Shown: positions 51,131-62,855 of the stretch, piece by piece
Position numbering within the stretch: the stretch's first letter is position 1
How the letters are laid out: every line of letters begins with the position of its first letter
Assembly: GCA_905221615.1 (NCBI GenBank)
Contig: CAJNDT010000990.1
Span: 344,608 to 408,607 of the forward strand
Reading direction: 5' to 3'
From: Symbiodinium sp. CCMP2592
Taxonomy: Eukaryota > Sar > Dinophyceae > Suessiales > Symbiodiniaceae
DNA length: 64,000 bases
Notes under the pieces: model-generated
What the model was told of the DNA's origin: nothing
Seen by the model: only the letters and a program-made list of their open reading frames with translations
The model's database searches: none
Made by a program: the position numbers and the translations under genes

Positions 51131-52657
51131 CGTCGTGTGCCACAAGTGTTCTTGCGGACCTTGTGCGCGAAGTAACCGACGCGCAGCGAGCTTTCTGTCA
51201 TGTTGTGTGGGCAAACCGGTGGCACTAGAGCATGCTCAACCAGCACAGCGCGTCGATGCTTTCGATCAGCGATCCCCCTCAGCTCATGCAACTAAACACA
51301 TACTTGAACCTCGAATCCACGTCTCTCGGTTCCTGCGACCCTGCATACTCCACCCTCTCCCAGCAAACAGAATTCCAAGAGAACTGCCATCACCCCGAAA
51401 CACGCACCTTAGGGTCTCGGGCTCAGGGCTTAGAGTTTAGAACTTGGGGCTTCGCGTCGAGAGTCTAGGGCCTAGGGCGTAGAGCTCAAAGCTCAAACTC
51501 CGGCCAAAAAAGACCCCAATAGACACAACCCCAACCACCCCGAAGCCCTGTTAAGTTAAAAACCAAACTTGCATACTAGCTCCAGGACAACCTCTGCCCC
51601 GAAAGACACAAAGGGCCCAACACAATAGACAGCAAAACAAACCTGTGGTCAGCCCGATCTCCCCGGCTCAATACAACTAAGAACAAAATGAGGCAGAAGA
51701 AGCCTAACACCGCAACGCACCTGCAACACTCGCAAGACACAACAGAAACATCATGCAAACCCCAGCAAACGCCAATCCAATCTTCAAAACCCTAAACCTT
51801 ATCTCTTGTGGAACCCTTGGACCCTGATAAATGTCAAGGCCTTAGAGAACCTTACAGAGACACCTGTAGAACCGTAGAGCCCTTTCAGAACCCTCAGCCC
51901 TAAACCCTAAACCCCCTTGACATCCGAAAGCAAACCACCCTTAACCCTAAACCCTAAACCCCCATAGTACCCTTATAGTAACCCTTCTAGCTCCCTCAAA
52001 GGAACCCTTGGGGTAACCCTAAAACCCTGAACCCTCCAACAGCAGCCCAGAGGTATCCCGTCCTTTTTGGATCGCTCCCTCGGCTCTGCTGCGAGGTAGT
52101 TGGGGTTTAGGGCGTGCGGCTCTAGGCTTTTTGGATTTGAGGGTTTTTGAGGGATGTTGGGTTTAGGCCTTTGGGGTTTAGGGCTTTTGGGTTTAGAATT
52201 TTTGTATTTAAGGGTTTGGGATTTGGGGTTTAGGGTCTCGGGGTTTTGGGCTTCTGGACTCAGGCTTTTGGGTTAGGGTTTAAAGCTTTCAGGTTTATGG
52301 TTGTTGGTCTGATTTTGGGGTTGAGGTTGAAGGTTTGATGTTGAAGGTTTCTGAAACTAAACCCCCTTAGAACCATAATAAAACAACATGTTTAATATTC
52401 CCGTGGGTTTTACATGAACAAAAAAGAATTCCTTAGGAGACTATAAGAAAGCCTGAAAACGTTCCTGTGCAGATTTTCTAGGGATTGGGGACAGGGTTCG
52501 TTGGGTCCATGTAGCTACACCGTTATAGTTAGTACTTAAGGGTTCACATGTAGGTACTCTGGGGTCACAGTGCATACGAAATCGCGACCGGGACCCTCGG
52601 AGACGGTGGTTGCAAGGGCCCGAGCTCCGGGAGGGTTTAGGATGTTAAGGCGATATG
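51131..52657. other. Non-coding DNA, weak coding-like patch at start
   Basis: 51,131-51,400 has no TTTAGGG motif and has open frames on both strands without recognisable motif. 51,780-52,380 is rich in CCCTAAA then TTTAGGG variants (51,895-52,030, 52,100-52,350). No gene assigned. Confidence 0.4.
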
Positions 52658-52950: not shown

Positions 52951-53011
52951 TGCATTGCCCATAATAAGGAATATACCCTAATTCCCACAGTTTAATGTCA
53001 TTAAGGTAATG
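52951..53011 (-). mobile_element. Family E copy 4, left fragment interrupted by the retrotransposon
   Basis: TGCATTGCCCATAATAAGGA, ATATACCCTAATTCCCACAG..TTTA and TTAAGGTAATG match the reverse complement of family E up to the point of LTR insertion. A matching right end, AATGCAGGGTTTGTATCATC..AACCG, is found at 62,947-62,972. Confidence 0.82.
53007..53011 (+). repeat. Target-site duplication TAATG (left)
   Basis: TAATG directly before the 5' LTR, repeated directly after the 3' LTR at 62,851-62,855. Five bp is typical of Ty1/copia elements. Confidence 0.95.
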
Positions 53012-53346
53012 TGTTGAAATGCTTCTCACTGCATGCCCAGGTATCAGGTTAGACAGGTGTGTAGTCTGCTTGAAGGGATTGCCGGCACTTGTATAGTTTC
53101 CTTCAGGTAGGCTTGTACATGTGTGTTTCCTGTATCCTTTGGCTTAGGGGAAGGCTGCGTAGGAAAGCCTCTTGAGCCATGTGTACTGTAACCAACAACT
53201 TGTAAAGCTGTACAGGTCGTTTGTTGGTTTGTCGGTTCTCTTGTTGCTTCGTTGAGATCGTGAGTCGCCTCTGCGCCCAGCCATAGAAAACATCTTGCGT
53301 GAGCTTCGCTGCAGGGTATGGCCACCCAGGGTGAACACCTTCAACA
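53012..53346 (+). repeat. 5' LTR (335 bp)
   Basis: TGTTGAA...TTCAACA with 7-bp terminal inverted repeats. Identical by eye to 62,516-62,850, and the antisense open frame inside it (93 codons) is also identical in both LTRs. The LTR includes the first ATG of the polyprotein at 53,318. Promoter elements are not certain. TTGTATAG (about 53,089) and CTGTATCCTTTGG (about 53,130) are the only TATA-like strings. Confidence 0.97.
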
Positions 53347-56300
53347 GGTTATGAGCCCAACGCCTGGGCCAGAAGCAACCGGAGCGGTGGCTTCTCCGGC
53401 CTCTCTGCCTGGAGTGCGGGGAGGCGGGGATGCACCGCAGACTACAGTGAATGGTACAACCGCCGGAGTTGGAGTGCCATCGCCCTCTGGGCTTGCGCAG
53501 CCTATTGGGGATGGAATCCAGCAAACTATGATGGATGCGTCGTCGGGGCCATCGACTTCCACAGCTGGTCTAGTGCCATCCCCTCAGCTGCCACAAGAAA
53601 CTGTTGGAACAGCCGGCCAACCGAGAGTTTCAGCAGTCGGTAGGACAGGAGGCGATGGAACACTAGGCCAGGTTGGAGGCTTGGGCACAGCTGGCGTTAC
53701 GTATGAAGCAGTATCTACCACGGAGGTCGCTGATGCGAGTGGGGTGCATGGAGATGCAACTGCAGTGACTCAGGGTTTCAGTGTGGCCACCGAAAGTGGA
53801 ATGGCTAGCGCTCAGATCAATGTTGCCGCAGGCGTCTCAGGGTACAACCCATCTGCAGCGAATCCTGGAAGTAGTGCTGAGGGCTTTGAAACGCCCAGAT
53901 CAACGGCGTACGGGGCGTCAGCGGTCATGCAGACTGGGGCTCAGGCTTTTGCTAGTCAGTTGCTAGGAAGAGTGCAGTCTCTGTTTGGTGGCGCGGCGAA
54001 CGTACAGCCACTGCCGCAAGGGTGGGCTCCCAGTCCACTGACTTCTCCTCCAAGGCCGTCGCGACCACTACAGCCCCTCGAGAGAGGAGGCCGCGTCCTG
54101 CAAGATGAGTGTCAAGTGCCGATGCCGTTGTTCACTGGTGCCAACGCGCAGCAGCTTGCTGCCATGGAGCAAAGAGCTCCCTTGCTCTACGGGTCCGGGT
54201 CTCCGGACAGGCCTCCGCACACCGAGTCCTCATCTATTCCGCATGATGCGATTCAGGCAGAAGTCGCGCGACAGCTTGATGGGTTGAAGCAGCAACTGCG
54301 AGCTGAGCAAGAGAGAGCTGGTCGTGCTGAGGCCGAACTCTCGAGGATTCGGTCTCAGCAGGCTGGTGAAGTTGAGGCTACGGCGTTGCAGCAGGTGGGT
54401 ACTAGGGAGGTTGGCTTTAGTGGGTTTGGTGATAGTGGGTTCGGTTCGCATCCTGTCGCCAACACTGGGGTTGGATTTGCCCCTTCTTCATCCTCACCGC
54501 CTCCTCCTCCGCCTCCTTCCGCTCCCGAGCCTCAGGGCTTCGCTGGTTTGTTCTCAGGGCTCCTTGGTTCCGGTGCGCGGTCTTCCAGCCCTGCACCGCA
54601 GAGGCCACAAGCAGAACCCAGAGGCACACTGCCAGCAGGAGCCGCGAGTGCATCAGGACCCACAGATTGTGAGATACTGATTGCTGGGATGCATCAACTT
54701 CAAGATGCCATGTCAGAGATGCTCAAGGGATCTCGTGCCGAACGCGATGGCGGCAATTCTCCCACCAACCCTGAAGCTGTTAAGCCAGGCATCTCGAGTT
54801 TCCCAGCTTTGGCAGAGCTCACTTCGGATGAAGGGTCTCTTCTGTACCAAGATTGGTTAGTCGTGATTGGGGGTTTGGTCGGTGATGTTTCGGACACAGC
54901 AGCAGAGTGGTGGCGTCAGGTTTTGGGTGTGGTTGATACGGCCTATGGGGTTTGGATTTCGTCATCACCCTTGGATAGGCTAAAGGTTGAGCCCGTTGTA
55001 CCGGCTGAGTTGCTTCAAGGGCGATGGGCGCGTGTCAACTTTAGGATCTGTAGTATGCTTATGGCGGCAGTTCCCGAGTCTATCAAAGCAGACATTGTGG
55101 CCCGCAAATGCAATCAATCAGCTCCTTCCATCCTTTTCCGTTTGCACACCACGTACCAACCAGGTGGAGGTTCAGAAAAGGAGGTTATTCAGAAGAATCT
55201 CATGCAGCCCACTCCAGCATCTGATCCCTCCTCAGCCGTGAAGTCTTTGCGTGAGTGGATTCGTTGGTACAATCGCTGTGAAAGTTGCAACATGTCACCT
55301 CCGGACTCGACCATTTTGTCCAAGAGCCTCACTACCATCACTAGCCAAGTTTTGGCGCAGCATGAAGAAGCGAAGTTTCGAACGTTTATGCTTCGTTCCA
55401 TGTTAAAAATGGATGCTCAACCAACTTCGTCTGCAGTCCTGGAGTACCACAAGCACTTGCTTGCAGAGATGGAAGCCCTTGCAGTCTCTAAGGCCACAGG
55501 TGTGAGTGCCCCTAAGGTTCGAGCTGTAGGCACGCCCAGTCCGGGAACATCTCCAAAGGCCAGTGGGCAGCCGCAGGCTTCAAAGCCCTGCAAGTTTTTC
55601 ATGGGTATTTCGGGGTGTAGGCGGGGTCCTAAGTGCACGTTTAGCCACGACATGTCAGGACTTTCTCGTCAGGAGCGCAGCAAAAAGTGCTTAGCATGTG
55701 GCTCTGAGGCACACCGCCAAAAGGACTGCCCGGTAGCTGGAGGAAGCCCAAAGGGGAAAGGACAGCCAGGTGGAGGAGACACCAACAATGCTGCAGGCCA
55801 CAGGCCTACAACGGCTGATCAGGCGTCTACTGCAATCCAGCCGGGCGCGAGCCCAGGCCGAGCGGAGGACTTCACAGCGTTTATGCGCATGATGTTTGCA
55901 GCTGCCAGTTCTTCCGAAGCCTTTCCTCCTGCATCCACCCCAGCCGCTCCCGCGCAGCCTCCGGCGATTGAAGACAAACCTGCAGCGCAGGAGGAGCCTA
56001 AGCCGAGCATTAAGACCATCCATCTCACAGCCATTGAGCCTGGGCAGGTTTTGGAAGTAGATGGTAGTCCTAGTTTTTTGGCTTTGGTAGACAGTGGGGC
56101 CACTCATGCCCTTCGCGCTGCAAGTTCCGAAGCTGAATGGGCTAGTGCGCAACCCGTTGTCGTGTCACTGGCTGGAAAGGAGACTTCGGCTATGCGTTTG
56201 TCTGCTGCTGGTACTCTTCTGTTGCCTCCCACATCCAGTGCCCAAACCATCGTGCCGCTGGGTTCTGTCATCCAGCAGCTGGGGTATCGTTTGGATTGGA

Positions 56301-59300
56301 CTGCCTCGCGATGCCGTTTGATTGCTCCTTCGGGTCGTGCCTTTCGCTTGAGGGTTAAAGGTGGGTGTCCAGAGATCATGGAATCAGAAGCCTTGGTGCT
56401 AATCAGCAAGCTAGAAGAAAAGCGGCTAGAGGACTTGAAGTCTCTGGAGGCGAATGTGGCCGAAGGTACCTCTCGCATCCGAGCTGTCAAAGCCTTGATG
56501 TCAAAGAGCTGGTGGGATCACATGCAGGACTATGTGAGCCTTGGATCTACCAATTCAGCCCAACTAGCGTTGCAGGCCGCGCCTTTCTTGGCAGATGTTC
56601 CCCAAGCAGCTTTGCAGGGACTTGTTGAGGATGTTGCTCAGGTTTCAGGATGGGAGCTCCTAAAGGGTTTGACGCATCTCAATCGGCGTCGCCGTCGTGC
56701 ATTGCTCAATGCCCCAGAGTGGATTGTTCATCTGTACGCTGGAGCCCCAGGCCCTAAACCCTTTTCGCACCTTGAGTCCAAGAATGTGGCTGTCCTGGAA
56801 TTGGACATTACCAGAGGCTCAGACCAAGATGTGCTACGCACTCCTGCTTGGCGCGCTCTAGTTTGGGGTGCCGTGCATGGCAAAGTGTCGCATCTTCTTG
56901 GTGCTCCACCGCGTGGTACGTTTGACACACATGCTCATGGGAGTAGCGTTGTCCCACCTGTGCGCGGGCCATTGGACTTATATGGCCTTCCAGATTTGTC
57001 AGCAGCACAACGGTCGAAGGTTGATCGTGAAACGGCTTTGCTTTGCCGACAGATTTGGTTGCATGCTGTGGCGACGGCAGGTCGCAAGGTTAGGCCGCCA
57101 GCTGGAGTTACTAGGCTTGAGGTTGGCTTTCTGCTTGAGCACCCGATGCTTATTGATCGCTATGTGCCTCCTTCGCATGCCTTGTTTGGTCAGGTCCCTA
57201 GTTTTTGGAATACTGGACTTTGGAATTCCTATGCCGATGAAGCAGGGTTGTTTGAAGTTCATGTCTACAAGGGGGATTTAGAGCATGTGATAAGTAGGCC
57301 TACGACCTTAGGCACGAACTATGGTGATTTGCAGTACCTAGAGACCCTAAGCCTTGACAAGGGTTTGCGTGGTGTCACTGTGCAGGCAGCCGCTGCAGAG
57401 CCTGAGAGTGAGAGCAGTGGCATGCCTCATCTGCATCGCAAGTCCCATGATTCAGCTCGATGGGCCCCTGGTTTTGCCCAAGCCGTGAGCATGAGCATCC
57501 AAAACTGGTCTAGGTGGTTCCGCATTGCCAAAACAAAGGCAGACGAACAGGCTTGGAGGGATCATGTGAAGAATAATCACCAACCGTTTCGGAAAGACTG
57601 TAGTGTGTGCATCAGAACTGCCGCCTCAGGACGCCGCCACGTTGGTGTGACTCACCCCTCACAGTTTACTCTGTCTGCGGATGTCTGTGGACCTCTGAAG
57701 GTGCCAGGTGCTGACCCGGAAGGTAGGTCAAAGGCGCCGAAGAAGTTCAAGTATTTTCTAGCTGCTTCGTATCGCTTTCCTCGTTTGCACGGCATGCCCG
57801 AAATTCCAGACCCCTTAGATGAGGTAGATCTCTCCAAGGAGGAGCCGCTGGACGATTTCCTTGAGGGTGCAGGTACAGGGCTAACTGAAGAAGAAGCGAG
57901 GGATATCTTAGAGAATCTTAGTGAAGATGATGCCCCACCTCTTCCGCCTCCACCACATGCTCCGGACGACAGTTACAGCCCCTCTAAAGAGGAGGCCGAG
58001 AGCCAAGAAGCAGAGGAGGAGGAAGATGGAAAAGAGGCTCAGGAGGAGGAAGCTGACGACGAGGAGGAGGCACTCCCGAATCGCGGTCCTCAAGAAGGGG
58101 ATTGGGAGTTTGAGTACTCAGATCTCAAAGAGCCAGTGCAGTCTGACAGGCTCATGTTCTGCGTTCCGCTGTTTGACAATAAGTCGCCTTCCGTCCTTGA
58201 AGCCCTTCAAGAAATTTACCTCTACTTGCGGGCACTCAATCTTCCAGTCTTGCGTTTGCATACCGATAGGTCGCGTGAGTTCATGAATAAGGCCACTCGC
58301 AAGTGGTTTGCAAATCAGCTCGTGAGGGTCACCACAACTGAGGGTGATGCGCCAGCCCAAAACGGCTCAGCAGAGCGCACCATCAGGTGGCTTAAGACTC
58401 GGGCACGAACTCTACTGCGAGCTGCTGATTTCCCGCCGCCCCTGTGGGCATGTGCAATGCGAGCTGCTGCAGCACAGCAGAGGTCTGAGGTACTAGGTAT
58501 GGCCACGAAGCTTGCAGCGCCTTTTGGTGCTAAGTGCCTGGTGCGCGTGAAGGCCTACACGTCTGTTGCAGCTGCTAAGGGCGAGATTGCCGAACGGTGG
58601 ATTTCAGGTCGGTATGCGGGTTTATCTCCAACGGTTAATGAAGGTCATTTGGTGTACAGGGATGATGGCAAAGGCAATGGGTTCACACAGTCGCTGCACG
58701 TGAGAACTAAGGTTGTTGAGCCTCCTGAGTGCCCTGAGCAGTTTGAGGGCGAGTCTGTCCCTGTAAGGCGTCGCGTTGTAGGAAAGTCCCCGCCAGAAGC
58801 AGAGCTGAGAGCTGCCCAGCTCGGCTCATGGACGTGGTCTGAGCTTGAAGCTGGCGCAAAGACTTTGCTGCAGGAATGGGATCCTGAGGCTGCCAAGAAT
58901 CTCCTCATGCAGGTTTGCCAAGCCTACCCCGAAGAGCAGTATCAAGCTGGAATGTTCCGTAGGGGAGGGATAGTAGGCTGTATGCGATCGACTTGGAGTA
59001 AGCCGTGGCTTGCCTCACTGTGCGCGCGCCTGTTGCAGCATCACGCACCTGATGCTACCTTCACGTCGGTGTGTTTGTCCAACTCGTGTCAAAAGGACAT
59101 TCACACTGATTCTTCCAACCTTCCGGGAACTACAAATCTCATCCTACCAGTGTGTCTTCCTAAGTGTGGGGGCGATCTTTGGGTTGAGTTAGGTAGTGGG
59201 GATGTTGTTAGGGGGTCTATTGTAGAGCACACTGATGCACGAGGTCGCAAGCGTCACGGTGTGGTGCACAGACTTGAAGAGGATGAAGTTTTCGAGTTTG

Positions 59301-62300
59301 ATCCTAAGCGGCATCATTTCGTAACTCCCTTCAAGGGCACCCGCGTCGTTGTTATAGGCTACACTTCCGACGTGCTTGGAAAGGCCGAAAAAGATGACCT
59401 TGACGGCTTAGCAGATTTGGGATTTCCTCTCCCAGACTCCGCCTATCTCCAGGCCCCGCGTCTGTCTCAAGTACAGGAGGAGGAGGAGGCCACTGAGGCT
59501 CATGAGATCCCTATCCATCAACACCCTAGCTTCCCGGAGAGCCAACCCGTCAACAAAGGTGGTGGTTGGCAAGAGGTCTTTCCAGTTGCAGATGGGTTTG
59601 TAGACTTCGCTGTGAACTGGTCGTGTTCGTATCGGCCAGTTGCCCCTGTATGCAGCCCCTCTAAAGAGGAGGCCGGACCAGAGCAGAACCAAAGACCCGT
59701 TGAGATTGATGAGGCCTGGCCGGTTACTGTGTCTTGGGACATGTATGTTCCGCAGGAGCCCATGAGCGATGCCGCAAACGCCAGCAACTGCAGTTTGAGG
59801 GTGCTTAAGGTTGTAGAAAGTGGTTCGCGGAGCTCGTTAGAGGAGGAGGGTTTCGTAAGCGAAGGTAGACCCGTAATCCCCTACCGCCTGTGCAAAGCCG
59901 AACCGACGTTCACGAAGAACATAGAACACCTTCTAAGCAATCTAAGCTCACCTCTGCAAATCGTTCACACTGTAGACCCCGCAGAAGTCGCACTCAATCC
60001 AATCCCTTGGATTCCGTCCATTGAGAAAGAAGTAAAGGCCATTGAGCATGCGGTGCTCAGACTGCGCCCTTCAGACCCCAGGCAGGCCGAGTACTTGAGT
60101 GATCCTCGACTGCAGGTGGTACCTTCCAAGTTTGTGTTCACAGTGAAACCGCCCGACCAAGGGGCAGCAGCTGTTGGTGACACTGGGAAGCTTGCGCTCA
60201 CTCAGCCCGACAACAGTACAGAGGCCCTTCAGGGCGCTCCAAAGGCTTCGTCGCAAGGCCAAGGTTTGTACCGTCGGAAAGCGAGACTTGTTGCTTGCGG
60301 AAATGTGGCGCCAAATACAGGCTTGGATGTGTATGCTGGAGGTGCTCAGGCTGAGAGCTTGAGAACAGTGATTGCCCTGGCAAGCTTCTTTGGTTGGTTG
60401 TTGGGAGTGTTGGATATCACCAGCGCGTTCCTCAAAACGCCTATTCCTTGTCTTGAAGGTTTCCCCATCTTTGCGTTGACCCCGCCCCGCTTGTTGGTCA
60501 AGCTTGGTCTTGCAGTTGCACATGAGCTGTGGATACTATCCCACGCGGTTTACGGCCTTCGAGAGGCCCCGCGCTTGTGGGGACAGTATCGAGATGCTTG
60601 TTTGGCAGCGTTGGTGTGGGACCTTGACGGCGTGACCTACCGGCTTGAGCCTTCGACCCTAGACCCGAACTGGTGGAAAGTCGTCAGGGTTGAAGGTGGT
60701 CGCGTTGAGGGCGCATTGTTGGTGTACGTTGATGACTTCTTGTTGTGTGGGTCGCTAGGTGTCCTTCAAAGTTTGGCAAAGGCTCTGCAAGAAAAGTGGG
60801 CCACAACACCGTTTGTGGTAGCTACCCCAGAGCAGCCGATCAAGTTCCTTGGCGTGGACATCATTGTCATTCCTCGTGGGTTTGTTCTCTCACAGCAGTC
60901 GTACGCAGAAGAAGTCTTGCGGCTTCATGAGGTACCTTGCCACGTGAGGGGTAGAATCCCTTGTCCTCGGGAGCTAGCGTCGTTTGAAGTTGGCGAAGGA
61001 GACTCCAGCCCCCCTGACGGGGAGGCCGTTCACCGCGCGCAACAGGTGACTGGTGAACTGCTGTGGTTGTCTCAACGTACTCGCCCGGACCTGGCGTTCA
61101 CTGCCAGCTTGCTTGCTAGTTTGTCTACGAAGGCGCCTTGTCGTGCTCTACGCATTGCTGACCGTGCCTTGGCTTACTTGCAGCGAACCAAGACAGCGTC
61201 GCTGGTGTTTGAGGCGGACGGAACCCAACTTCACGGTTGGAGTGACGCAAGCTTCTCGCCAGAAGGCCTTCGCTCACATGGAGGCTGGTGCGTGTGTGTG
61301 CATGGATGTCCAGTTGCTTGGAGGTCGGCGCGTCAAGCTTTTGTGACACTTTCTACTGCTGAAAGTGAACTCACTGCTTCGATTGAGTGTGCAATCGCGC
61401 TTGAATCAATTGAGGCGTTGCTTCACACGGTTGGTTTTGACGTTGCCGAAGAAAGGGTGTTGCACGTTGATTCCCAAGCGTCACTTGCGATTTCTGATGG
61501 TCATGGATCATGGAGAACGCGACACCTACGGGTAAGAGCTGAGTACCTTCGTGAGCAGACTCGCTCTGGGAAGCTGAGGCTTGCCTTCTGCCCGGGTGTG
61601 GAACAGCTTGCAGATCTACTGACCAAACCTCTTCCGTCTGCAAGGATTGAAGAGCTTGTCAGGTTATGGGGCATGCGTGACTTTGCGGGTGATACAGCCG
61701 ACCGAGAGGTCAGGCCGAGCTCGTCAGCAGCTGTCGACCCAGTCGCGTTGAGTGCCTTGTTGTGTTTGCTTCAAATCCAACCTGCACGAAGCTCAAGCCG
61801 TGAATCCGAGTATCCTGGCTTGCAGCTTGATGGATCCCTGGAGCTGTACTTCGTTCTTGGCATGGCATTGGTTTGTGTCCTTGTTGTGTGGGAGTGGTTG
61901 AAGAGATTGTGGGATCGGCTTGATGCGTGGTGGGCTGGTTCGCATGCGTCGTCTCGTCGAGCCCGTCGTTTGAGGCGTATGCAGAGAGCTGTTGAGGATG
62001 AGCTTGCTGCCCAACTGCAGGGCATGAGTCTTGAGGACGTGTCTTCCAGACCACCAGCAGGTGAGTCCACAGCTCACAACGAGAGGGCACCTGTGCCTTC
62101 GCAGTCCTCCCACGAGTTGCCTGCTGCACCACGGCCCAAGGCCACACAGTCTCGTCGCCGCCCTGCAGTGCGTGAGCAGTCTACTCAAACGGATCGTGAG
62201 CCTGCTTTCCAACCAGTCACAGGAGTCCCACCAGATCCGATGCCTGCCAGGATCGAAATCCGCACGCAGTATGAACTTCCCCAAGGTCCCTTTTACTTCA

Positions 62301-62419
62301 CTGCGCACGGGGATTGTGTTCATCTAGATTCTAATTGTTGGGGTTTAAGGCGTAATACACCCTTAACTACCCGCAACTTGTGCCGTGTTTGCAGAGACCG
62401 CCACCGCACAGGTCTCTAA
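53318..62419 (+). CDS. Gag-Pol polyprotein of Ty1/copia retrotransposon, with dioxygenase-like and methyltransferase-like domains
   Basis: A single frame of 3033 residues. Start: ATG 53,318 is the first Met after an in-frame TGA (53,300) and lies inside the LTR. M12 (53,351) is an alternative. Order: Gly/Ala/Ser/Thr-rich N-terminus; coiled coil about 309-358; Pro-rich about 392-405; gag core about 495-725; CCCH finger C758/C767/C773/H777; CCHC knuckle C791/C794/H799/C804; protease D925 (DSGA); Rossmann, C5-methyltransferase-like region about 1135-1345 with HLYAG but PPR1199 where catalytic Cys is expected; integrase zinc motif H1416/H1421/C1428/C1431 and catalytic D1455, D1650, E1686 (D-x35-E), with an acidic insert about 1498-1607; 2OG-Fe(II) dioxygenase-like domain about 1830-2035 (H1929-x-D1931, H2000, R2009); reverse transcriptase about 2319-2560 (D2366, YVDD 2470-2473); RNase H D2643, E2682, D2718; hydrophobic segment about 2842-2862; tail C3000/H3002/C3007/C3022/C3025. 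It copies element RNA and integrates the DNA. No frameshift separates gag and pol. Confidence 0.97.
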   Translation: MATQGEHLQQVMSPTPGPEATGAVASPASLPGVRGGGDAPQTTVNGTTAGVGVPSPSGLAQPIGDGIQQTMMDASSGPSTSTAGLVPSPQLPQETVGTAGQPRVSAVGRTGGDGTLGQVGGLGTAGVTYEAVSTTEVADASGVHGDATAVTQGFSVATESGMASAQINVAAGVSGYNPSAANPGSSAEGFETPRSTAYGASAVMQTGAQAFASQLLGRVQSLFGGAANVQPLPQGWAPSPLTSPPRPSRPLQPLERGGRVLQDECQVPMPLFTGANAQQLAAMEQRAPLLYGSGSPDRPPHTESSSIPHDAIQAEVARQLDGLKQQLRAEQERAGRAEAELSRIRSQQAGEVEATALQQVGTREVGFSGFGDSGFGSHPVANTGVGFAPSSSSPPPPPPPSAPEPQGFAGLFSGLLGSGARSSSPAPQRPQAEPRGTLPAGAASASGPTDCEILIAGMHQLQDAMSEMLKGSRAERDGGNSPTNPEAVKPGISSFPALAELTSDEGSLLYQDWLVVIGGLVGDVSDTAAEWWRQVLGVVDTAYGVWISSSPLDRLKVEPVVPAELLQGRWARVNFRICSMLMAAVPESIKADIVARKCNQSAPSILFRLHTTYQPGGGSEKEVIQKNLMQPTPASDPSSAVKSLREWIRWYNRCESCNMSPPDSTILSKSLTTITSQVLAQHEEAKFRTFMLRSMLKMDAQPTSSAVLEYHKHLLAEMEALAVSKATGVSAPKVRAVGTPSPGTSPKASGQPQASKPCKFFMGISGCRRGPKCTFSHDMSGLSRQERSKKCLACGSEAHRQKDCPVAGGSPKGKGQPGGGDTNNAAGHRPTTADQASTAIQPGASPGRAEDFTAFMRMMFAAASSSEAFPPASTPAAPAQPPAIEDKPAAQEEPKPSIKTIHLTAIEPGQVLEVDGSPSFLALVDSGATHALRAASSEAEWASAQPVVVSLAGKETSAMRLSAAGTLLLPPTSSAQTIVPLGSVIQQLGYRLDWTASRCRLIAPSGRAFRLRVKGGCPEIMESEALVLISKLEEKRLEDLKSLEANVAEGTSRIRAVKALMSKSWWDHMQDYVSLGSTNSAQLALQAAPFLADVPQAALQGLVEDVAQVSGWELLKGLTHLNRRRRRALLNAPEWIVHLYAGAPGPKPFSHLESKNVAVLELDITRGSDQDVLRTPAWRALVWGAVHGKVSHLLGAPPRGTFDTHAHGSSVVPPVRGPLDLYGLPDLSAAQRSKVDRETALLCRQIWLHAVATAGRKVRPPAGVTRLEVGFLLEHPMLIDRYVPPSHALFGQVPSFWNTGLWNSYADEAGLFEVHVYKGDLEHVISRPTTLGTNYGDLQYLETLSLDKGLRGVTVQAAAAEPESESSGMPHLHRKSHDSARWAPGFAQAVSMSIQNWSRWFRIAKTKADEQAWRDHVKNNHQPFRKDCSVCIRTAASGRRHVGVTHPSQFTLSADVCGPLKVPGADPEGRSKAPKKFKYFLAASYRFPRLHGMPEIPDPLDEVDLSKEEPLDDFLEGAGTGLTEEEARDILENLSEDDAPPLPPPPHAPDDSYSPSKEEAESQEAEEEEDGKEAQEEEADDEEEALPNRGPQEGDWEFEYSDLKEPVQSDRLMFCVPLFDNKSPSVLEALQEIYLYLRALNLPVLRLHTDRSREFMNKATRKWFANQLVRVTTTEGDAPAQNGSAERTIRWLKTRARTLLRAADFPPPLWACAMRAAAAQQRSEVLGMATKLAAPFGAKCLVRVKAYTSVAAAKGEIAERWISGRYAGLSPTVNEGHLVYRDDGKGNGFTQSLHVRTKVVEPPECPEQFEGESVPVRRRVVGKSPPEAELRAAQLGSWTWSELEAGAKTLLQEWDPEAAKNLLMQVCQAYPEEQYQAGMFRRGGIVGCMRSTWSKPWLASLCARLLQHHAPDATFTSVCLSNSCQKDIHTDSSNLPGTTNLILPVCLPKCGGDLWVELGSGDVVRGSIVEHTDARGRKRHGVVHRLEEDEVFEFDPKRHHFVTPFKGTRVVVIGYTSDVLGKAEKDDLDGLADLGFPLPDSAYLQAPRLSQVQEEEEATEAHEIPIHQHPSFPESQPVNKGGGWQEVFPVADGFVDFAVNWSCSYRPVAPVCSPSKEEAGPEQNQRPVEIDEAWPVTVSWDMYVPQEPMSDAANASNCSLRVLKVVESGSRSSLEEEGFVSEGRPVIPYRLCKAEPTFTKNIEHLLSNLSSPLQIVHTVDPAEVALNPIPWIPSIEKEVKAIEHAVLRLRPSDPRQAEYLSDPRLQVVPSKFVFTVKPPDQGAAAVGDTGKLALTQPDNSTEALQGAPKASSQGQGLYRRKARLVACGNVAPNTGLDVYAGGAQAESLRTVIALASFFGWLLGVLDITSAFLKTPIPCLEGFPIFALTPPRLLVKLGLAVAHELWILSHAVYGLREAPRLWGQYRDACLAALVWDLDGVTYRLEPSTLDPNWWKVVRVEGGRVEGALLVYVDDFLLCGSLGVLQSLAKALQEKWATTPFVVATPEQPIKFLGVDIIVIPRGFVLSQQSYAEEVLRLHEVPCHVRGRIPCPRELASFEVGEGDSSPPDGEAVHRAQQVTGELLWLSQRTRPDLAFTASLLASLSTKAPCRALRIADRALAYLQRTKTASLVFEADGTQLHGWSDASFSPEGLRSHGGWCVCVHGCPVAWRSARQAFVTLSTAESELTASIECAIALESIEALLHTVGFDVAEERVLHVDSQASLAISDGHGSWRTRHLRVRAEYLREQTRSGKLRLAFCPGVEQLADLLTKPLPSARIEELVRLWGMRDFAGDTADREVRPSSSAAVDPVALSALLCLLQIQPARSSSRESEYPGLQLDGSLELYFVLGMALVCVLVVWEWLKRLWDRLDAWWAGSHASSRRARRLRRMQRAVEDELAAQLQGMSLEDVSSRPPAGESTAHNERAPVPSQSSHELPAAPRPKATQSRRRPAVREQSTQTDREPAFQPVTGVPPDPMPARIEIRTQYELPQGPFYFTAHGDCVHLDSNCWGLRRNTPLTTRNLCRVCRDRHRTGL
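53347..53361 (+). promoter_or_regulatory. Primer binding site, half-tRNA initiator-Met type
   Basis: GGTTATGAGCCCAAC begins directly after the LTR. Its complement, GTTGGGCTCATAACC, has the CAU anticodon flanked by the GGG/CC stem typical of initiator tRNA-Met. This is the arrangement known for Drosophila copia, where a cleaved half tRNA primes from the anticodon arm, and not the usual 3'-CCA end (TGG...). Confidence 0.85.
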
Positions 62420-62506
62420 AGGCAAGCCAAGGTTCAAGGCTAGAGGTCCCAGGAACGGGCATGCTGTAAATAGTGCAGCGTGTGCTAGTTGCCTGTCGGC
62501 TCTAGC
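62420..62506 (+). other. 3' untranslated region of retrotransposon
   Basis: 87 nt between the polyprotein stop and the polypurine tract. No further frame of note. Confidence 0.8.
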
Positions 62507-62515
62507 AAGGAGGAG
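62507..62515 (+). promoter_or_regulatory. Polypurine tract
   Basis: AAGGAGGAG ends directly at the 3' LTR start, the expected position for plus-strand DNA priming. Confidence 0.85.
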
Positions 62516-62850
62516 TGTTGAAATGCTTCTCACTGCATGCCCAGGTATCAGGTTAGACAGGTGTGTAGTCTGCTTGAAGGGATTGCCGGCACTTGTATAG
62601 TTTCCTTCAGGTAGGCTTGTACATGTGTGTTTCCTGTATCCTTTGGCTTAGGGGAAGGCTGCGTAGGAAAGCCTCTTGAGCCATGTGTACTGTAACCAAC
62701 AACTTGTAAAGCTGTACAGGTCGTTTGTTGGTTTGTCGGTTCTCTTGTTGCTTCGTTGAGATCGTGAGTCGCCTCTGCGCCCAGCCATAGAAAACATCTT
62801 GCGTGAGCTTCGCTGCAGGGTATGGCCACCCAGGGTGAACACCTTCAACA
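62516..62850 (+). repeat. 3' LTR (335 bp)
   Basis: Same length as, and apparently identical to, the 5' LTR. Polyadenylation signals are not evident by eye. Confidence 0.97.
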
Positions 62851-62855
62851 TAATG
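62851..62855 (+). repeat. Target-site duplication TAATG (right)
   Basis: Matches the left duplication. Followed by CCTTAATG, the complement of CATTAAGG just left of the 5' duplication, so the insertion site was the centre of a palindrome. Confidence 0.95.

Follow-up and report, generated by a model that had tools for sequence, protein, structure and literature searches.

A TET/JBP-like oxygenase domain in the polyprotein of a Symbiodinium copia retrotransposon

The window analyzed here is a stretch of 64,000 nucleotides from the dinoflagellate Symbiodinium sp. CCMP2592 (contig CAJNDT010000990.1, positions 344,608 to 408,607), whose forward strand carries an intact copia-type long terminal repeat (LTR) retrotransposon (53012-62850), recognized by an LTR pair, a target-site duplication and one long reading frame. 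Within its polyprotein lies a domain (58835..59437, forward strand) that resembles the 2-oxoglutarate (2OG)/Fe(II) oxygenases of the TET/JBP group, as indicated by conservation, a structure model, fold matches and profile links to relatives that match the Pfam family Tet_JBP. The domain is probably a working oxygenase of the TET/JBP kind and a regular module of copia pol in this dinoflagellate, with a DNA base as its substrate. We infer catalysis, this substrate, the site of action and the gain for the element from sequences and a structure model.

Conserved residues and predicted fold

The initial annotation reported an HxD...H iron triad and a downstream Arg between the integrase and the reverse transcriptase (RT), and these residues are found where it placed them. 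H1929 (59102-59104) and D1931 (59108-59110) make up a putative iron-ligand H-x-D motif (codons 1934 and 1936, 59102..59110), H2000 (59315..59317), the second H of an RHH sequence, is the putative second iron-ligand His, and R2009 (59342..59344) is the putative 2OG-binding Arg, all on the forward strand. Residue 1 in this numbering is the Met at codon 6 of the frame 53303-62419, which runs from stop to stop. The location of the domain between the integrase motifs and RVT_2 (codons 2323-2542) is also as described, and the GG-x-L block is present, reading GG-x-L-W in the window. The proposed N-x-x-G block stands only in part: it occurs in the window, but what is conserved is H-x-D-x-x-N plus a second Asn, and the Gly is not invariant.

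Conservation of the H, D, H and R residues among related elements, on which the annotation had made its reading conditional, holds in alignments of 20, 94 and 14 rows. All four are the same in each of the 20 aligned sequences, comprising the window and 19 copies from its own genome with 36-45% identity, and the same sequences keep N116, N122, GG, W, E and other residues (domain numbering from 58772). Twenty diverged copies were fetched for this alignment, and one that was excluded as a near-duplicate (L032, of L031) also has the motif. The larger set has 94 domain rows from 93 proteins, with 8-11 rows gapped at each key site; among the covering rows, the first His is present in 85 of 86, the Asp and N116 each in 86 of 86, the second His in 84 of 85 and the Arg in 82 of 83. 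The wider 14-row alignment has 11 invariant columns, three of which are the H, D, H triad. The motif is also intact in each of 30 fetched near-identical loci, the window among them.

The ratio of nonsynonymous to synonymous substitution rates (dN/dS) is 0.04-0.16 in the five lineage pairs with dS below 1.3. Judged by its sequences, the oxygenase domain is under purifying selection. Between pairs of proteins, oxygenase and RT distances rise together (rho 0.85 over 54 proteins and 1431 non-independent pairs; means of 0.42 and 0.40, respectively), so the domain is conserved to about the same degree as the polymerase and has travelled with it. The sampled copia proteins were found through the domain and thus all bear it, so that the sample is uninformative on elements that lack it.

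The structure model of the domain has a confident predicted fold. As the annotation required, the prediction is a double-stranded beta-helix that matches 2OG oxygenases, and NgTET1 is the top row in the VIA comparison, in which a family missing from the lists is not thereby excluded as a relative.

Relationship to TET/JBP enzymes and competing explanations

The resemblance to TET/JBP that the annotation also claimed is supported by the VIA ranking and by relatives in the same genome. A six-frame genome search with the Tet_JBP profile (PF12851; 150 of 155 candidates scored) yields 148 matches at E<=10, the best of which has 29.6 bits (E 2.2e-4). All but one of the 148 lack an internal stop, and many share frame lengths, as repeats would. 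Twelve of these loci were fetched and read, and nine of the twelve were scanned against Pfam. The profile of the window family matches all twelve (49.7-91.3 bits), and hhalign joins the window family and the Tet_JBP-like loci at 99.85%. H-x-D-x-x-N is kept in the twelve, and the Arg in eight. In 9 of 9 scanned loci, Tet_JBP is the sole 2OG family (E 3.5e-6 to 4.8e-4, all below the cut-off); because these loci were chosen by the Tet_JBP profile, it is the lack of any other oxygenase family that is informative here. The window domain has in common with TET/JBP enzymes (PF12851; NgTET1, TET2, CcTET, JBP1/2) the HxD...H triad, the downstream Arg and the predicted 2OG-oxygenase fold, and its nine scanned same-genome relatives match this oxygenase family only. 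It differs in being internal to a retrotransposon polyprotein instead of a host gene, and in that the genome matches are all sub-cut-off. Its stretch from HxD to the second His is presumably also longer than that of NgTET1 or JBP1.

Several results weigh against this assignment. The Pfam check proposed by the annotation gives no match over the oxygenase domain of the window copy. Among 20 members of the close family, three match Tet_JBP (E 0.097-0.30) and four match Cupin_2 (best 0.027), and alignment A3 has 21 members, of which none matches Tet_JBP. None of the 148 genomic matches reaches the 34.9-bit cut-off, and E. coli, 1 of 14 control genomes, also gives a sub-cut-off PF12851 match, so the weak end of the list may be chance. 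The nine scanned loci were picked with the very profile that they then match, which makes the test partly circular, and two of them (L053 and L061) cover only profile positions 72-117. Lys stands in place of the Arg in 4 of the 12 fetched loci, all of one copia-like lineage. Distant pairs have dN/dS of 0.06-0.39 with saturated dS (30 of 190 pairs listed). In the structural comparisons, FTO (VIA Z 9.9), ABH3 (9.3), ALKBH5 (9.3), AlkB (9.2) and PHD2 (9.1) come close behind NgTET1, which is ahead of FTO by 1.0 and of PHD2 by 1.8, and Foldseek gives low TM-scores (0.28-0.40, normalised to the query, in the 38 rows at E<=1e-3). PHD2 also has an HxDxxN motif and an equal distance from H to R, and TET is therefore not singled out by these details.

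Other searches gave little. The domain has no match below E 0.01 in Pfam, PHROGs, NCBIfam or PDB sequences; the best PHROG match has 0.011, and the best PDB match, at 0.022, is an unrelated TIFY protein. No match was obtained by searching PDB sequences with the relatives L055 and L051 or by an NCBIfam scan of three relatives. A search of viral contigs with alignment A2 gave 103 pattern matches, none of which was confirmed as a relative, and the wider alignment A6 has no stretch conserved enough for scanning viral or genome collections.

Perhaps the domain is an active 2OG oxygenase that acts on something other than a DNA base. As an RNA demethylase resembling FTO or AlkB it would protect the RNA of the element, and as a protein hydroxylase resembling PHD or P4H it would target Gag, integrase or a host factor. 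Such a role agrees with the small distance in VIA Z between NgTET1 and the FTO, AlkB-type and PHD2 structures, with the presence of PiuC, ABH2, PHD2 and AlkB among the best Foldseek rows, with plant-virus replicase entries among the BFVD matches of the domain model, and with the replication of the element through RNA. However, the nine scanned relatives, profile-picked as they are, have Tet_JBP as their one oxygenase family in Pfam, and the polyprotein also holds DNA enzymes and a C5-methyltransferase-like module. Members of the window family also differ from the AlkB/FTO and PHD/P4H families in that the 20 scanned have no Pfam match to any of these, the nearest being one match to Asp_Arg_Hydrox (E 0.16). 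A non-DNA substrate is a possibility that we consider less likely than a DNA base.

Loss of catalysis, leaving an oxygenase fold that serves the integrase or RT as a structural or DNA-binding module, is improbable. The adjoining methyltransferase-like module has no catalytic cysteine, so pseudo-enzymes probably do occur in this polyprotein, and the Lys in one related copia-like lineage would fit the same idea. Yet the iron-ligand residues hardly vary in 85-86 covering rows whose mean divergence is about 42%, and the triad accounts for three of the 11 columns that are invariant in the wide alignment. A chance resemblance within a rapidly evolving linker in a dead repeat might be suspected from the missing Pfam match of the window copy and the lack of a meaningful match in the PDB sequence search. 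We give this almost no credence: chance or decayed sequence is rejected by the identical LTRs, open frames, conservation, low dN/dS and confident predicted fold.

The retrotransposon, its copies and related elements

Searching the 1.098-Gb genome of the same organism with the domain (150 of 4690 candidates scored) reveals at least 59 near-full-length domain rows with at least 98% identity, including the window. Frames of at least 3000 amino acids hold 34 of these 59, and 146 of the 150 scored rows are free of internal stops. The 30 fetched near-identical loci have a median pairwise difference of 0.54% over about 3.7 kb, with 350 of 435 locus pairs less than 1% apart. More than one subfamily is present among them, because two loci (L009 and L024) differ by the maximum of 7.1%. 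The window element is a member of a young, amplified family.

Like Ty1/copia elements, the window element has TG..CA LTRs, a short (5-bp) target duplication and an integrase, recognized by motifs, upstream of RVT_2. It differs from them in adding a methyltransferase-like module 5' of the integrase and the oxygenase module 3' of it. The 335-bp LTRs (TGTTGAA...TTCAACA; 53012..53346 and 62516..62850, forward strand) have the same letters, and are identical over 336 bp if one extra G in front is counted. They are flanked by the target-site duplication TAATG (53007-53011 and 62851-62855). A putative primer-binding site, GGTTATGAGCCCAACG (53347..53362, forward strand), adjoins the end of the 5' LTR and presumably resembles the half-tRNA-iMet site used for priming in Drosophila copia, and a putative polypurine tract, AAGGAGGAG (62507..62515, forward strand), adjoins the start of the 3' LTR. 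Degenerate telomere-like repeats of the TTTAGGG type (52095-52269) lie directly upstream of the element.

The gag-pol polyprotein frame comprises 3038 codons from stop to stop (53303..62419), on the forward strand like each of its domains. A CCCH zinc finger (codons 761-783, 55583..55651; Pfam zf-CCCH_4 1.2e-5 and zf-CCCH 4e-4) is followed by the motif VDSGATH (56087..56107), which has no Pfam match in the scan of the window polyprotein and which, from general knowledge of retroelements, we take to be that of an aspartic protease. The integrase (57563..58400) consists of an H..H..C..C zinc motif and the residues D (57680), D (58265) and E (58373). Its Pfam rve match is weak in the window copy (E 0.14), and in the homologue P0053 has 7.1e-6, below the family cut-off. 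A long acidic insertion (57700-58150) separates the first and second catalytic Asp. The RT (RVT_2, 60269..60928; Pfam 4.5e-14) includes YVDD at 60725. A hydrophobic, membrane-like segment (61838-61903) occurs 3' of RNase H, and a 19-residue tail stretch with mean hydropathy above 1.6 is found in 19 of the 20 sequences, out of 94, that have a recognisable end. Such a tail segment is not known as a usual feature of copia elements.

Between the protease and integrase motifs is a domain resembling C5-cytosine methyltransferases (56435..57397) that lacks the motif-IV cysteine. At the site of this Cys (PPC), none of 54 covering rows has Cys; 53 have Gln, and one, the window (GAPPR), has Arg. A catalytic upstream methyltransferase is rejected, given that the cysteine is absent in all 54 rows.

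Oxygenase modules related to that of the window recur in other retroelements of the genome. In a second copia-like lineage (L053, L054, L060 and L061), the module lies between integrase-like and RT-like sequence in frames of 3089-3203 amino acids, with RVT_2 at only 0.08 in the cut L053 stretch. These are the loci with Lys (GGPK), displaced by one residue, instead of the Arg that putatively binds 2OG. The oxygenase is upstream of the integrase motifs in a third copia-like arrangement (L058 1-1596 and L066 2-2299, both on the reverse strand; RVT_2 6.1e-6). Three further loci (L063, L051 2411-4501 and L064 3-1859; G000:C485, about 43.8-51.3 kb) belong to an apparently DIRS-like element, a reading to which a weak tyrosine-recombinase N-domain match (0.075) and RVT_1 (0.0047) contribute. 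Its pol frame of 1283 codons encodes, in this order, the Tet_JBP-matching domain, a methyltransferase-like stretch in which PPC and ENP motifs occur, and the RT; several other PF12851 genomic matches share the frame length of this element. Short open frames of 271-326 amino acids in L055, L056 and L057 are mutually similar and contain a lone Tet_JBP-like domain, and these could be host genes or else retroposed fragments. No arrangement was assigned to L059 and L062. A tree of 32 domains sets the window group apart from the other 12 with support of 99/99; several long branches meet in this tree, and acquisitions were therefore not counted.

Proposed role and significance

If the domain is a TET/JBP-type oxygenase acting on DNA, it would oxidize a base, either 5-methylcytosine (5mC) or thymine, the latter to 5-hydroxymethyluracil (hmU). 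Travelling together with the integrase and RT, it could find its target in the newly made cDNA or in the DNA where the element inserts. Oxidation of 5mC at the insertion site or in the new copy might diminish the methylation by which new copies are silenced, or re-mark it; alternatively, the oxygenase may put hmU into the cDNA as a mark. Two consequences suggested by the annotation, escape from silencing and added hmU in the host, could follow from such an activity. It is conceivable, if rather unlikely, that base oxidation in these dinoflagellates is largely the work of retroelements, with the TET/JBP-like oxygenases of copia and DIRS-like elements, sometimes accompanied by methyltransferase-like modules, making the hmU of the host, oxidized methylcytosine, or both. 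No classical host TET/JBP gene stood out among the 148 six-frame matches (12 read), in which intron-split genes could be missed. We know of no enzyme that has been identified as the maker of hmU in dinoflagellates.

In two species then called Symbiodinium, CG methylation is described as about 70%, with a global level like that of mouse or human (PMC5890265). According to a review, hmU replaces 12-70% of thymine in dinoflagellates, and the makers of hmU in general are likely enzymes of the TET family (PMC6723414). In Breviolum minutum, 5-hmU is reported as enriched in most repeats (PMC11071213).

Mobile elements that carry DNA-modification enzymes have precedents. Fungal DNA transposons and Helitrons are described as carrying TET/JBP genes (Kojima 2025, PMC12730594). 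Those elements, like the one in the window, combine mobility with a TET/JBP-type oxygenase, in coding regions that are mostly undisrupted; in the fungal case, though, TET/JBP is treated as a protein beside the transposase, whereas the window domain is inside the LTR pol polyprotein of a dinoflagellate. SymbioLINE-Dnmt and SymbioDIRS-Dnmt3 are LINE and DIRS elements of Symbiodinium that bear DNMT (de Mendoza 2018, PMC5890265). They too are Symbiodinium retroelements with a DNA-methylation enzyme in the coding frame, but theirs is a methyltransferase, a writer, and that of the window element is an oxygenase. According to the same article, no DNMT domain is present in the most abundant superfamily, Copia; the window copia element has a methyltransferase-like domain. 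The words "TET", "JBP" and "dioxygenase" are absent from the main text of that article, and in a paper on dinoflagellates and retrotransposons (PMC11244446), JBP occurs in the reference list only. No report of a TET/JBP-like oxygenase in retrotransposon polyproteins was found in the open-licence literature searched, which leaves subscription journals mostly uncovered. There are published examples of retrotransposons with methyltransferases and of fungal DNA transposons with TET/JBP oxygenases; an oxygenase in a retrotransposon polyprotein, which did not show up in this literature, is apparently new.

If the proposed activity is real, the commonest class of Symbiodinium retrotransposon could act on 5mC in heavily CG-methylated genomes. 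The oxygenase domain is a concrete, expressible candidate for making hmU in dinoflagellates, and an element of a coral-symbiont alga may rewrite DNA marks to its own benefit.

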